A DNA stretch of 64,000 nt from a bacterium (GTDB lineage Bacteria; BMS3Abin14). Positions 6,663-53,188 of the stretch are shown one piece after another. Position 1 is the first letter of the stretch. Every line of letters starts with the position of its first letter. The stretch spans positions 130,260 through 194,259 of the forward strand of contig CP070719.1 in the NCBI GenBank assembly GCA_020350725.1. Reading direction: 5' to 3'. The notes beneath the pieces were generated by a model. It saw only the letters and a program-made list of their open reading frames with translations. It ran no database searches and was not told the origin of the DNA. Made by a program: the position numbers and the translations under genes.

Positions 6663-7478
6663 TCAGGACGCTTTGTTCAGAATGCGCTTTAATTCCTTCT
6701 TTCTCTTCCTGAGTTGTCTGATCCTGCCGCTGTCCCTCACGGCAACGGCCTCTGCGATCTGGGTCTTGAGACCCCTTTTCTCGGCCTTGAGCGCATCCAG
6801 ATCATACTTCTCCCTTATCCTAGTCTGGAGCTTGGTGAGCGGTTTTTCCTCCGGGGGCTCCTCCTTCTTAACGGGGGGTGCCTGGGGTGCGGGCGCGGCC
6901 TCGGCCTCCGGTTCGGGCGCGGCCTCAGCCTCCGGTTCGGGGGCGGCCTCGGGTGCGGGTTCGGGCGCGGCCTCGGCCTCCGGTTCGGGGGCGGCCTCGG
7001 GTGCGGGTTCGGGCGCGGCCTCAGCCTCCGGTGCGGGCGCGGCCTCGGGTGCGGGTTCGGGCGCGGCCTCGGCCTCCGGTTCGGGGGCGGCCTCGGGTGC
7101 GGGTTCGGGGGCGGCCTCGGGTGCGGGTTCGGGGGCGGCCTCGGGTGCGGGTTCGGGGGCGGCCTCGGCCTCGGGTTCGGGGGCGGCCTCGGCCTCCGGT
7201 TCGGGCGCGGCCTCGGCCTCCGGTTCGGGCGCGGCCTCAGCCTCCGGTTCGGGCGCGGCCTCGGCCTCCGGTTCGGGCGCGGCCTCGGCCTCGGGTGCGG
7301 GCGCGGCCTCGGCCTCGGGTTCGGGCGCGGCCTCGGCCTCGGGTGCGGGCGCGGCACCGGTCAATGCGTCTATCAGGTCGGCCTTTTTCATTCCGGATAT
7401 GCCCTTGAGGCCCAGATCCCTGGCCATCTCCTTCAACTGGGCCACGGTTTTCTTCTCGAGATCCTTGACATCATCCAT
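6663..7478 (-). CDS. Rho-N/SAP-like domain protein with 20 octapeptide repeats
   Basis: 271 residues in three parts. Residues 1-41 (LEKKTVAQLKEMARDLGLKG, then MKKADLIDAL) form a Rho-N/SAP-like helix-extended-loop-helix that often binds nucleic acid. Residues 42-201 are 20 units of eight residues, AAP[EA]P[EA][AP]E. Residues 202-271 are very basic and helical (LRKRKKELKRILNKAS), also suited to nucleic acid. The order suggests two nucleic-acid-binding ends joined by an extended acidic Pro/Ala linker; the function is unknown. AAAGGAG precedes the ATG. Because of the repeats, all six frames are open across the middle; only this frame has sensible, non-repetitive ends. Repeat number may vary between strains. 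Confidence 0.8.
   Translation of the reverse strand: MDDVKDLEKKTVAQLKEMARDLGLKGISGMKKADLIDALTGAAPAPEAEAAPEPEAEAAPAPEAEAAPEPEAEAAPEPEAEAAPEPEAEAAPEPEAEAAPEPEAEAAPEPAPEAAPEPAPEAAPEPAPEAAPEPEAEAAPEPAPEAAPAPEAEAAPEPAPEAAPEPEAEAAPEPAPEAAPEPEAEAAPEPEAEAAPAPQAPPVKKEEPPEEKPLTKLQTRIREKYDLDALKAEKRGLKTQIAEAVAVRDSGRIRQLRKRKKELKRILNKAS
6876..7355 (-). repeat. 24-bp tandem coding repeat, 20 copies
   Basis: 480 bases of tandem 24-bp units, read on the plus strand as variants of GGTTCGGGCGCGGCCTC with one or two interchangeable codons. Each encodes one octapeptide of the repeat protein. The mix of near-identical neighbours suggests recent expansion by slippage or unequal recombination. Confidence 0.9.
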
Positions 7479-14027: not shown

Positions 14028-15365
14028 GTGTTGGAAAAGATCAGACCCATCTTCCTGCTTCTGCCCATCGCCCTGGTTTGTATCCTTGCACCCTCCGCGG
14101 GGTTCGCCCTGCCGGTGTGCGCCGAGTGTCACGGCGAGTGGCTCGAGTCGGCCAAGGTCCGCAAGGTCCTTCACCCCCCCTTTGAGGAGGACGACTGTGT
14201 CTCCTGTCACGACGACCACGGGGACGACGGGCGGCTGGTCCTGGTCGAGGAGGGTACGGCCCTCTGTTTCCAGTGCCACGATGAGCCGGCAGAGGGCTCC
14301 GGGATCCACCCCGTTATCGAAGACGAGGGCTGCCTGGGCTGCCACGATCCGCACGGTTCGGCGAGCCGACCGCTGCTGACGGAGCCTGCCGAGGACCTCT
14401 GCCTGGGCTGTCACGACGACGTCATGGCCGGCGCGGCCCGGCACGAGGCGGCTCTGGACGGCGGCTGCACCGATTGCCACAGCCCCCACGCCTCCCGCCA
14501 CGCGAAGCTCCTCCTGTCCGAGCCGCCCAACCTCTGTCTCGACTGCCACGACGATCCGACGGCAGAGGGCAGGGTGCACGCGGCCGTCGAGGACGAGGGC
14601 TGTCTGTTCTGCCATGGCCCCCACAGCTCAGAGAACAGACGGCTGCTGACGGAGCCTGCCGAGGACCTCTGCCTGGGCTGTCACGACGACGTCATGGCCG
14701 GCGCGGTCCGGCACGAAGCGGCCCTGGACGGCGGCTGCACCGACTGCCACAGCCCCCACGCCTCGGGCCACGCGAAGCTCCTCCTCAGCAAGGTCCCCGA
14801 CCTCTGCACGGACTGTCACGAGGTGGTGGGGCCGCTTGACAGCCACCTGCACACCGCCCTCGCGGACGGCGGCTGCACCGACTGTCACCTTCCCCACGCG
14901 GCAGGCAGACCCAAACTGCTGACCGGCGCCTATAATATGGAGCGGTTTCCCGACGGATTCAGCGAAGGCATGTACGAGCTGTGTTTCCAGTGCCACGACC
15001 CCTCCCTCGTGACCGGGAAGGGGGACCAAGGGGTGACCAATTTCCGGAACGGGCCCAAGAACCTCCACGACGTCCACGTGCAGGGGCAGCTGGTCCCAAA
15101 CAAATACGGCATCGTCAAGCGGGGTAAGGCCAGGTCGTGTTCCGTCTGTCACGATCCCCATGGGTCTTCCCAGCCCTTCGATCTGATCAGGGAGTACAGC
15201 TGCCAGGGTGTCTTCTGTTTTACGATGACCTACCATCCTCTGGAGGATGGGGGCAGGTGTATGGTGGGGTGTCACAAGCCCCAATCCTACCACCGCTCAG
15301 GAAGTGGGGCCGGCGATCGGTCGGCGGAGATCTCAGGGCAGCCCGTCGATCAGAAGCCGGATTGA
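14028..15365 (+). CDS. Periplasmic multihaem cytochrome c, 14 CxxCH plus one CxxxCH
   Basis: 445 residues with a signal peptide (LLLPIALVCILAPSAGFA). I count 14 CxxCH haem-binding motifs, among them CAECH, CVSCH, CFQCH, CLGCH, CTDCH, CLDCH and CSVCH, plus a final CMVGCH with three intervening residues. Motifs come in pairs about 20-40 residues apart, as in the doubled-CxxCH domain family. The protein probably carries electrons in or across the periplasm. A 270-bp internal duplication is described separately. The start is GTG 14028 or TTG 14031, with GAGAGG upstream. Haem attachment would need the ccm operon at 26-31 kb. Neighbours do not show the redox partner. Confidence 0.9.
   Translation: MLEKIRPIFLLLPIALVCILAPSAGFALPVCAECHGEWLESAKVRKVLHPPFEEDDCVSCHDDHGDDGRLVLVEEGTALCFQCHDEPAEGSGIHPVIEDEGCLGCHDPHGSASRPLLTEPAEDLCLGCHDDVMAGAARHEAALDGGCTDCHSPHASRHAKLLLSEPPNLCLDCHDDPTAEGRVHAAVEDEGCLFCHGPHSSENRRLLTEPAEDLCLGCHDDVMAGAVRHEAALDGGCTDCHSPHASGHAKLLLSKVPDLCTDCHEVVGPLDSHLHTALADGGCTDCHLPHAAGRPKLLTGAYNMERFPDGFSEGMYELCFQCHDPSLVTGKGDQGVTNFRNGPKNLHDVHVQGQLVPNKYGIVKRGKARSCSVCHDPHGSSQPFDLIREYSCQGVFCFTMTYHPLEDGGRCMVGCHKPQSYHRSGSGAGDRSAEISGQPVDQKPD
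14372..14785 (+). repeat. Internal duplication in the cytochrome gene
   Basis: 144 bases at 14372-14515 recur at 14642-14785, exactly 270 bases (90 codons) later, with six mismatches. Each copy encodes a CLGCH/CTDCH haem pair. Four of the six differences are single-base changes and two are adjacent, consistent with a fairly recent duplication of two haem-pair modules. Confidence 0.9.
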
Positions 15366-31615: not shown

Positions 31616-31617
31616 AA

Positions 31618-31689
31618 GCACTACCAAGTACTAAGTGCAAAGTGCTAGGGGCTGAGAACTAATAACTAAGAACCAAGAACTGGGGACTC
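31618..31689. repeat. Degenerate 7-nt tandem repeat, consensus AAGNACT
   Basis: Ten heptads can be read in register: AAGTACT, AAGTGCA, AAGTGCT, AGGGGCT, GAGAACT, AATAACT, AAGAACC, AAGAACT and GGGGACT, with partial units at the edges. It lies between the TPR gene stop and the terminator. Period 7 is kept although the words drift. Similar arrays with other words occur in six further gaps. Confidence 0.8.
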
Positions 31690-31694
31690 AATAG

Positions 31695-31723
31695 AAGCCC
31701 TGCGTCAACGCAGGGCTTTTTTT
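31695..31723 (+). terminator. Rho-independent terminator of the ccm operon
   Basis: A perfect 10-bp stem AAGCCCTGCG / CGCAGGGCTT around the loop TCAA, directly followed by a run of T to 31723. It is 80 bases after the stop of the last operon gene. Confidence 0.92.
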
Positions 31724-31768
31724 ATGAGTTTCCACTTCTTAGCGCTTATCTCTTGGAGCTTGGCGCTG

Positions 31769-32605
31769 CTAATCCTTCCCCTTGCCGGGCGGTGGTTCTC
31801 TGTAGGGCAGGGGGACATACTGGACGGAGGGTCTTCGGGCAGCGGGCTGAGGGAAGAGGGTCATGAAATGAAATACATCCTCCGGTATGCCGGTCGAGAC
31901 CGGCAGGCCGATCTCGCGGGCTTCCTCGAGGGTGATGGGATAATCGTGGGTCCAAATGCCGCCGGTCAAGTTCCGCGCCAGTTTGCGGGCTTCGTTCGCC
32001 GGCATTTTACCGGCAAGAATCGTCTCCACGCAGCGGCGGACCTGTTTTATCGCCTTCCGGCTGATGTCCGCGAGGATGAGGGTCTCGTCATCGACTTTGT
32101 CGATGGGCTTGCTTTCCACAGCCTGGATGATCGAGGCCGCCGGGAACTGCCCAACCTGAGGATCAACGGGGCCGAGAACGGCATTCTCGTCCATGGCGAT
32201 CTCGTCGGCGGACATGGCGACGAGAGCGCCGCCGGACATGGCGTAATGGGGAATGAATACCGTCACCCTGGAAGGGTGATTGAGAAGGGCATGGGCCACC
32301 TGCTCCGCGGCCAGGACAAGTCCTCCGGGTGTGTGAAGGATGATATCGATGGGAATGGAGTCATCAGTCATTTTGATCGCCCGGATGATCTCCTCCGAAT
32401 CCTGAATATCGATGTATCGCATCAGGGGAAATCCGAAAAGGCTCAGGGTCTCCTGACGGTGGATGAGGGCGATCACCCTGGAACCCCTGGAAGCCTCGAT
32501 CCTCCGCATGGTGTTGATCCTCTTTGATTCGAGGATCCTCCTCTGGATCAGAGGTGAGAAGGCCGAGATAATGAAAAGCAGCCAGATGACGTCGAGAAAG
32601 CTCAT
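31769..32605 (-). CDS. Membrane-anchored SppA/ClpP-fold serine protease (SDH_sah family)
   Basis: 278 residues. An N-terminal membrane helix (MSFLDVIWLLFIISAF) is followed by the SDH_sah/SppA-type domain: IDIILHTPGGLVLAAEQVA with the oxyanion glycines and HYAMSGGALVAMSADEI with the candidate nucleophilic serine. Members are poorly characterised, ATP-independent serine proteases of membrane quality control. The ATG at 32605 is preceded by AGGGAA. rpe lies 4 bases upstream, so the two probably share a transcript. The C-terminal tail is Pro-rich and unconserved. Confidence 0.85.
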   Translation of the reverse strand: MSFLDVIWLLFIISAFSPLIQRRILESKRINTMRRIEASRGSRVIALIHRQETLSLFGFPLMRYIDIQDSEEIIRAIKMTDDSIPIDIILHTPGGLVLAAEQVAHALLNHPSRVTVFIPHYAMSGGALVAMSADEIAMDENAVLGPVDPQVGQFPAASIIQAVESKPIDKVDDETLILADISRKAIKQVRRCVETILAGKMPANEARKLARNLTGGIWTHDYPITLEEAREIGLPVSTGIPEDVFHFMTLFPQPAARRPSVQYVPLPYREPPPGKGKD

Positions 32606-33352: not shown

Positions 33353-33387
33353 GGTACCTGGTATTAAGTACTTAGTACTAAGTACCA
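33353..33387. repeat. 7-nt tandem repeat, AGTACTA-type
   Basis: Five heptads in register: GGTACCT, GGTATTA, AGTACTT, AGTACTA and AGTACCA. The word is the same as in the array at 31618 (AAGTACT). It includes the palindrome GTACTTAGTACTAAGTAC and is followed by seven T on the plus strand. Confidence 0.75.
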
Positions 33388-38312: not shown

Positions 38313-38453
38313 TGGAGCATTGGAGATCAGAGTATAAGAAATTAGATTGTTGTCGGTAAGCGGCGAACCAATCGCCTGTTTCTGACCCCTATCCTCCAAT
38401 GCTCCAATCTCTAATGCTCCAATGCTCTAATCTCTAATGCTCTACCCTCAAAC
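38313..38453. repeat. Inverted pair of 7/8-nt repeat blocks (CTCCAAT-type)
   Basis: The right block, 38391-38453, reads CTCCAAT GCTCCAAT CTCTAAT GCTCCAAT GCTCTAAT CTCTAAT GCTCTAC, alternating 7 and 8 bases. The left block has TGGAGCATTGGAG at 38313-38325, the exact reverse complement of CTCCAATGCTCCA at 38394-38406. The arms are 68 bases apart. It fills most of the 261-base gap between priA and def. Confidence 0.75.
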
Positions 38454-44240: not shown

Positions 44241-44292
44241 GTGGATGCGGAATGCGGAATGCGGGAGACGGGAGACAGAAGACAGAAGGAGA
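44241..44292. repeat. 7-nt tandem repeat, changing word
   Basis: Heptads in register: GATGCGG, AATGCGG, AATGCGG, GAGACGG, GAGACAG, AAGACAG, AAGGAGA. The word shifts step by step along the array while the period stays 7. It lies between the divergent DUF1015 and nitroreductase genes. Confidence 0.75.
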
Positions 44293-48162: not shown

Positions 48163-48221
48163 CGGGCGGAGAAACGAGTCCAGAGGCCAGCGTCCAGAGG
48201 GAGCGATGAACTAGTCTCTTC

Positions 48222-48256
48222 GAATCACGGATCACAAATCACGAATCACTAATCAT
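48222..48256. repeat. 7-nt tandem repeat, GAATCAC-type
   Basis: Five heptads in register: GAATCAC, GGATCAC, AAATCAC, GAATCAC, TAATCAT. It lies between the convergent DUF362 and moaA genes. A CRISPR array is excluded by the unit size. Confidence 0.8.
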
Positions 48257-49325: not shown

Positions 49326-49901
49326 TAAGGATTCGACTCCCCGTATTCCGAATTTTGGTGAAAATGCCCCTCTCAGTGCACCGCGTTTATACCGAGGCGG
49401 CCGCGAAGCTCCGAGGCGCCAAGTGAACTCCCGGAGGTCAGCACCGGGCCCAAAGGAGGGATCGCTCTCTCTCCTCGGGTTTGCGTCTTTATCTGAGAAA
49501 GGGCAAATCGTATAACTTTACGGTCCAGTTCCCAGGGTCCAGCATGCCGCTTTGCGTTCCCCGCGAAAGAAACCGGGCCCGTTTTTGGCGAGCCCGGTCG
49601 ACCATCGACCTCTCCTTTCCAAAACGGGAGGCCCGCCCGTTTCCAGGCGACCCTGTCGGCCGGTTGCCATAGCACGCTGCGGCGTTCCTTAGGCTGGCGG
49701 CTCGGAGAGCAATTCTGTTACCGGCAGCCGCCCCGCAGTTCAGAGGATACAGGGGCAGGCGGTCTAGCTGGTATTATATAATCCAAAGTCCAAAGTCCAA
49801 AGTCCAAAATGAGACATAAGGACATCACAGGTTTCAAAAGATCACCTGAATCAGAGGAAAGTAAACTCCATATTATTGGTTTTTGGGTCTTGGATTCTCC
49901 G
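49326..49901. other. Long intergenic region upstream of moaA
   Basis: 576 bases without a supported gene. It holds a hairpin ACCGGGC (49572-49578) / GCCCGGT (49592-49598) with a 13-base loop and the TCCAAAG repeat array. It must also hold the moaA promoter and could hold a leader element; I looked for a molybdenum-cofactor or cyclic di-GMP riboswitch and found only partial resemblance. Confidence 0.45.
49782..49809. repeat. 7-nt tandem repeat, TCCAAAG
   Basis: Three perfect TCCAAAG units followed by TCCAAAA. It is the most regular of the heptad arrays in the window and lies downstream of the GspE N-domain gene, next to an AT-rich TATTATATAA stretch. Confidence 0.85.
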
Positions 49902-53145: not shown

Positions 53146-53162
53146 AGGTCAGGAGTCAGGAG
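53146..53162. repeat. Short 7-nt repeat, GGTCAGG/AGTCAGG
   Basis: Two heptads plus edges (AGGTCAGGAGTCAGGAG) directly after the nadA stop. Too short to stand alone, but it fits the period-7 pattern seen in other gaps. Confidence 0.45.
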
Positions 53163-53167
53163 AAGAA

Positions 53168-53188
53168 AAGCCTCCCCTGGGGAGGCTT
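53168..53188. terminator. Bidirectional terminator between nadA and moaC
   Basis: AAGCCTCCCC and GGGGAGGCTT form a nearly loop-less inverted repeat around a single T; the inner pairs would open to make the loop. On the minus strand CTTTTCTT follows, a usable U-tract. It separates the convergent nadA and moaC genes. Confidence 0.75.

Follow-up and report, generated by a model that had tools for sequence, protein, structure and literature searches.

Heptamer arrays of the 64-kb window

The window, i.e. the whole 64-kb stretch of DNA that was analysed, corresponds to positions 130260-194259 of a 2.78 Mb genome, assembled as one scaffold with 100-N gaps. Arrays were located in it by TRF and lag scans, and the scores of inverted arms were compared with those of 200 shuffles. 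A previous interpretation made from the letters alone (the sequence-only reading) had listed period-7 arrays in seven intergenic gaps, at 31618, 33353, 38391, 44241, 48222, 49782 and 53146, and these were recovered at their positions. The period-7 calls are 31655-31681, 33361-33385, 44245-44288, 48176-48199, 48221-48255, 49782-49808 and 53148-53162. The arrays of this list are real, with two qualifications: the array at 38391 contains both 7-base and 8-base units (TRF on 38394-38444 gives periods 8, 15 and 23), and the one at 53146 has only 2.1 units, which is too short to stand alone. The features are as follows:

31616-31690, + strand: left arm, degenerate heptamer array of roughly 10 units, consensus about ACTAAGN, directly after a stop codon
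31693-31723, + strand: intrinsic terminator hairpin AGAAGCCCTGCGTCAACGCAGGGCTTTTTTT, between both arms of the 31618 array
31722-31763, - strand: right, inverted arm of the 31618 array (score 14; none of 200 shuffles above 11)
33360-33386, no strand assigned: heptamer array AGTACTA/AAGTACT (inverted match, p = 0.005)
38315-38346, - strand: left, inverted arm GAGCATTGGAGATCAGAGTATAAGAAATTAGA of the 38391 array (score 17; none of 200 shuffles above 13)
38391-38446, + strand: array CTCCAAT(G)/CTCTAAT(G) of mixed 7- and 8-base units, in the gap that separates priA from the next gene
44241-44290, + strand: array drifting from AATGCGG to GGGAGAC to AGACAGA, in a divergent gap; no inverted arm found
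48174-48199, + strand: core module A (GAGTCCAGAGGCCAGCGTCCAG), fragment of a mosaic element
48221-48255, + strand: core module B (AATCACN), fragment of a mosaic element
49780-49810, + strand: array (TCCAAAG)3.9
49876-49896, - strand: inverted arm TTGGTTTTTGGGTCTTGGATT of the 49782 array (score 11, p = 0.005)
53146-53164, + strand: short array GGTCAGGAGTCAGGAG, directly after a stop codon (inverted arm not significant, p = 0.35)

A second arm was detected in four gaps (31618, 33353, 38391 and 49782); in the gaps 44241 and 53146, the shuffle test revealed no significant inverted arm. The inverted pair of the 31618 gap spans 31624-31763 and encloses the intrinsic terminator, the fold of 31616-31770 having a z of -6.4. 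Within the 33360-33386 array, positions 33368-33385 form a perfect palindrome of 18 bp, GTACTTAGTACTAAGTAC, after which comes a T run, and a terminator-like hairpin (53168-53188) lies downstream of the 53146-53164 array. The inverted-repeat arms, present in many arrays, had been overlooked in the sequence-only reading, as had the membership of common words in mosaic elements, a fragment of which occupies 48176-48255.

Two other repeats of the window lie within coding sequence. The first, a 135/270-bp tandem duplication at 14317-14821, is found within a gene and its unit translates to CxxCH haem motifs; judging from this translation, the gene probably encodes a multihaem cytochrome enlarged by internal duplication. 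The second, at 6880-7355, is a 24-bp unit (GCCTCGGGTTCGGGCGCGGCCTCG) repeated about 20 times within an open reading frame.

Genome-wide distribution of the arrays

The genome was sampled as 40 stretches of 20 kb plus the window, i.e. 844 kb of the 2.78 Mb. Some of the 40 stretches were picked by earlier word matches, so that array densities may be somewhat overestimated; the difference between periods should hold, since it is independent of how the stretches were picked. Coding and intergenic sequences were separated using heuristic codon-model gene calls, and the arrays of the 844 kb are distributed by period as follows:

Period 5: 2 coding, 4 intergenic
Period 6: 13 coding, 4 intergenic
Period 7: 5 coding, 275 intergenic
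Period 8: 2 coding, 57 intergenic
Period 9: 7 coding, 1 intergenic
Period 10: 0 coding, 0 intergenic
Period 11: 1 coding, 1 intergenic
Period 13: 0 coding, 1 intergenic

The period-7 intergenic arrays are a real, genome-wide feature. With 275 of the 280 period-7 arrays located between genes, the enrichment of this period over others and its rarity in genes, which the sequence-only reading had set as its own test, are both borne out. Besides 7, an excess is seen only at 8 and at the harmonics of both, the other periods yielding 0-6 intergenic arrays. In Markov-shuffled sequence, each period has about 14 arrays per 400 kb, low-complexity matches included, and 7 is not favoured. Furthermore, the lag scan detected no lag-7 excess in coding sequence, and lag 7 is still about 2.5 times as frequent as adjoining lags in intergenic sequence devoid of called arrays.

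The arrays are also unevenly distributed among gaps, being present in 24 of the 59 convergent gaps (41%) versus 13 of the 67 divergent ones (19%; p = 0.011). Arrays lying at most 30 nt from a stop codon amount to 15.4%, versus 9.0±1.5% expected; the distance test, which compares arrays with expectation, showed no enrichment near start codons.

Word turnover at orthologous gaps

Each of the six relatives for which more than 16 kb was sampled has period-7 arrays, five of them with 14-40 arrays per 100 kb, and the words of the arrays differ between genera. The proposal that the period is conserved and the word is not, first made for the window, holds inside the genome and is still better supported by the comparison of relatives. 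For example, the gap downstream of priA carries the word CTCTAATG in the source genome, TTCTRCR in G006 and G007, AACTTTC in G009, and GTCCAAT and AGTTTCT in G010; G001 and G002 have arrays of other words farther along this gap, ahead of the next gene, and G011 has no array in it.

Gaps were also compared between congeners, whose flanks are roughly 70-92% identical, a divergence at which single mutational events are not visible. In congeners of G007, an array is kept in 12 of the 18 gaps where G007 has one, versus 8 of the 24 where it has none, which is suggestive, although not strong, of array retention at orthologous gaps. The word differs by at least 2 changes in 9 of the 12 gaps that keep an array. 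Gap length is equal within 3 bp in 5 of the 12 (127/126, 298/295, 282/281, 96/95 and 89/89 bp), the word being changed in most of them. Between L164 10613 and L148 6180 (96 and 95 bp), one set of changes distinguishes the units of the two species and recurs in phase throughout the array. Two gap pairs were compared between G001 and G002: one has a changed word, and the other has the same word in a different copy number.

Inverted pairs and possible 3'-end structures

Inverted pairs were scored by sequence matching, a word-level test being too strict. An array was considered as paired if a reverse-complement partner lies within 260 bp and matches it with a score of 12 or more, direct partners and control neighbourhoods being used as controls. 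Among the arrays located outside core modules (G001 and G002 left out), 45 of 108 have an inverted partner, compared with 4 for direct partners and 5 for controls; the two members of such pairs form the arms of large, imperfect hairpins. The numbers of arrays with inverted, direct and control partners, respectively, are:

Private arrays of the source genome: 14, 2 and 3 of 40
G003: 1, 0 and 0 of 4
G005: 10, 1 and 0 of 19
G006: 4, 0 and 0 of 8
G007: 4, 0 and 1 of 19
Loci of other phyla: 12, 1 and 1 of 18

G001 and G002, in which the core word GAGTCCA is abundant, display no excess of inverted pairs (7, 11 and 9 of 34). The pairs listed amount to 86 in all, mosaic pairs included, and some belong to loci beyond the clade, i.e. 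from Acidobacteria (L080), Desulfobacterales (L058), a deltaproteobacterium (L100) and Pseudomonas indica (L082). The match between arms is better within species than across species (p = 0.04), at a divergence that does not resolve single copying events. In Pseudomonas indica, L082:16871-16928 carries an inverted heptamer-like pair (GCAAGCGCCAAGCTACAAG / CTTGTAGCTTGACGCTTGC), which suggests that the inverted heptamer pattern may extend to Gammaproteobacteria.

These pairs are at the heart of the strongest rival explanation, according to which selection maintains the inverted arms as hairpins working in both directions, either to terminate transcription or to protect the 3' ends of mRNA, the sequence being free to drift while the arms pair. 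Such selection would fit the preference of the arrays for convergent gaps and for stop codons rather than starts, the gaps whose words change while their length stays, the intrinsic terminators enclosed by some arm pairs (31618; L150 6732; L010 16366) and the strong folds of several of them (z = -4 to -8). However, several two-arm gaps are no better folded than shuffles (z near 0 for L164 10613, L148 6195 and L149 5020), and RNA folding was dropped as a general rule. Furthermore, the partner of many arrays was not detected, neutral tolerance fits the convergent-gap preference too, and selection for pairing leaves the 7-nt period unexplained. Globally, this explanation is plausible but rather unlikely to be the right one; it may also work alongside a copying process.

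Words and mosaic elements

The 844 kb contain 60 exact-dimer words, about 43 of which are private to one array, the other 17 being common to 2-36 arrays; the idea that each locus has its own word is thus correct for the former and not for the latter. The commonest words, given in one orientation, are GAGTCCA, AATCCAA, AATCACN and GTGAACN. No hidden consensus was found across words, their information (3.52 bits) being compared with 3.48±0.13 bits for shuffled words. A C-Y-R pattern noticed by eye across words was gone when compared with shuffled words, and a periodic purine/pyrimidine rule was rejected as a weak trend only. The longest degenerate array found (155 bp, in L112:16427-16673) has units that vary combinatorially around C-Y-R-A-T-S-N.

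The core words recur across many gaps as modules of dispersed polar mosaic elements of about 0.3-2 kb. Polarity agrees between adjoining modules in 368 cases and is opposite in 16, and the modules follow a preferred order; for example, H precedes C 23 times and follows it once, C precedes D 19 times and follows it 3 times, and D precedes E 7 times and never follows it. Examples of mosaics are L105:18823-19276, L003:2312-3312, L008:8954-11474 and L012:10635-12101. Non-heptamer modules (GTCATTGCGAAC...TGAAGCAATC, GACGCGGGGACGCGG, GGGCGAGGGG, CCACAGAGGACCACAG and CTTCGACAGGCTCAGG) accompany the heptamer modules, and several of the 100-N assembly gaps lie inside or adjoin mosaic elements.

The arrays might be non-autonomous mobile or copied elements that travel in larger dispersed repeats, a new word being due to the arrival of another copy. 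We regard this as unlikely: about 43 of the 60 words are confined to a single array, word sharing among loci of one congeneric genus barely exceeds that among genomes, and no mobilising gene was identified in the gaps. It would nevertheless account for the fixed polarity and preferred module order of the mosaics, for the two core words that each have around a hundred or more genome-wide matches, and for dispersed matches that reach 472 bp at 83%.

Finally, it is highly improbable that the arrays bind a protein touching DNA every 7 bp, like the omega ribbon-helix-helix protein on WATCACW heptads, since the resemblance of core module B (AATCACN) to WATCACW (PMC9499535) and the concentration of mismatches at certain unit positions are set against remaining words that are unrelated and lack a common consensus (which also speaks against the DNA-binding spacing device evoked in the sequence-only reading), the absence of the AATCACN module from the samples of G001-G003 and G005-G011, and the scarcity of arrays in divergent, promoter-bearing gaps, which have the fewest. 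Module B is the only one similar to WATCACW, 45 of its 108 units ending in A or T, and a search for the omega family PF07764 gave no match, in the source genome or in any control genome.

Array dynamics and proposed mechanism

As the congeners are too diverged to be read, the indel spectrum was taken from dispersed copies. Inside arrays, the indels between these copies are of 7 nt in 53 cases, 6 nt in 14 and 8 nt in 14. The identity of units decreases with growing unit distance (0.83, 0.77, 0.75, 0.68 and 0.61), neighbouring units being the most alike. Both this decrease and the 7-nt peak support replication slippage, one of the processes proposed initially.

To the mechanism that we favour, we would grant an even chance: a word-blind process of slippage and template switching, with a preferred 7-nt step, would make and rewrite the intergenic heptamer arrays. 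Slippage would occur within one array by steps of 7 nt, regardless of the word, and template switching would occur between the inverted arrays of one site, both together being the probable motor of the arrays. Template switching between imperfect inverted repeats makes their arms alike and creates hairpins (PMC8604942, PMC8794818). As a 7-nt change would shift the frame in genes, arrays would build up between them. Some arm pairs may act as, or surround, 3'-end or terminator hairpins, and a few words of the source genome would have been further amplified within polar mosaic elements copied among gaps. Copying by 7-nt steps within arrays and between arms would keep the period constant whatever the word, and would yield paired arms as well as copies that differ by entire units, without explaining why the step is 7. 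This mechanism is supported by the exclusive period-7 excess, the arbitrary words, the inverted pairing, the 7-nt differences between copies and the word turnover at orthologous gaps, as well as by the better match of arms within species. A period that persists while words change among species suggests copying with a fixed step and not a single conserved signal.

Three observations count against it. The length-stable gaps with a changed word do so because plain slippage should alter length. Mismatches are clustered by unit position with a ratio of 1.5-1.9, versus 1.1-1.4 in neutral slippage simulations. In AATCACN arrays (L003, L011, L012, L105 and others), adjacent units share their seventh base less often than expected (5/78 vs 15.9), and units two apart often agree in this base (19/48 cases). 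Neighbour alternation was rejected as a general rule, being seen in AATCACN but absent from GTGAACN.

More broadly, it is conceivable, albeit doubtful, that a process widespread in bacteria and acting by a fixed 7-nt step writes inverted heptamer arms at hairpins between genes and rewrites both in concert, so that period and pairing would be inherited and sequence would not. The sole proposal for the number 7 found in the open-licence literature is polymerase-footprint slippage (Mrazek), as reported in PMC4679880 and PMC4692102.

Comparison with known heptamer repeats

Heptamer repeats have hitherto been reported word by word in few genera, their common period having no accepted cause. The statement that no such family had been described was too strong, heptamers of Xanthomonas, Nostoc and Beggiatoaceae and a general bacterial heptamer excess being published (PMC4692102, PMC4679880). 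In Xanthomonas, the heptamer excess, degenerate heptamers, their location close behind the neighbouring gene and inverted pairs are already known (PMC4692102). Many unrelated words of one period in one genome, inverted pairing common across phyla and word replacement at orthologous gaps were not found described in the open-licence literature. A single clade in which one period goes with many unrelated words, with inverted arms and with words that are replaced between congeners at the same gaps makes the period separable from the word; inverted heptamer pairs are also found in Desulfobacterota, Acidobacteriota and one Pseudomonas contig. The question "why 7?" becomes testable, and such words should not be taken for regulator sites.

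The closest system is GGGAATC/GGGANTN of Xanthomonas (Rehm et al. 2015, PMC4692102), which shares heterogeneous 7-base units, a mostly intergenic location (89-93% in Xanthomonas), proximity to the 5'-side neighbouring gene, more frequent occurrence in convergent than in divergent gaps, inverted pairs (70-75 per Xanthomonas genome), and length and sequence that vary among species at the same gaps. However, Xanthomonas has one G-rich, quadruplex-forming word per genome, whereas dozens of unrelated and mostly not G-rich words are found here, where one word also gives way to another at orthologous gaps, unlike in Xanthomonas (PMC4692102). Globally, the 7-nt excess, intergenic location and inverted pairs of the Xanthomonas/Nostoc type are found, but neither a single word per genome (there are 60) nor G-rich units (most words lack GGG).

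The cyanobacterial STRR heptamers and GGGGA(C/T)T of Nostoc similarly include several heptamers per genome, but inverted pairs are rare among the G-rich heptamers of Nostoc (PMC4692102, PMC4476775). The P6b hairpin of Nostoc trnL is also made of heptamers, with two alternative words (TDNGATT and NNTGAGT), one replacing the other, but it is a single site within an intron (PMC4476775). The TAACTGA heptamers of Beggiatoaceae also form short intergenic arrays, about 170 sets per genome, but with a single word, in direct orientation, just upstream of start codons (PMC4679880); TAACTGA is missing from our word lists, and no enrichment was found near starts. In the survey of long simple sequence repeats by Mrazek (2007), as cited in PMC4679880 and PMC4692102, the heptanucleotide is likewise the commonest long unit in most genomes, but long simple repeats were counted, and the citing text does not address degenerate arrays, inverted pairing or word turnover. 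Lastly, Geobacter metallireducens carries dispersed elements (GGACCGG; MTYCTGA), each with four or five heptamers in tandem, which differ from the present arrays by their fixed words, their 15-49 copies and their interpretation as regulatory (PMC2700814).
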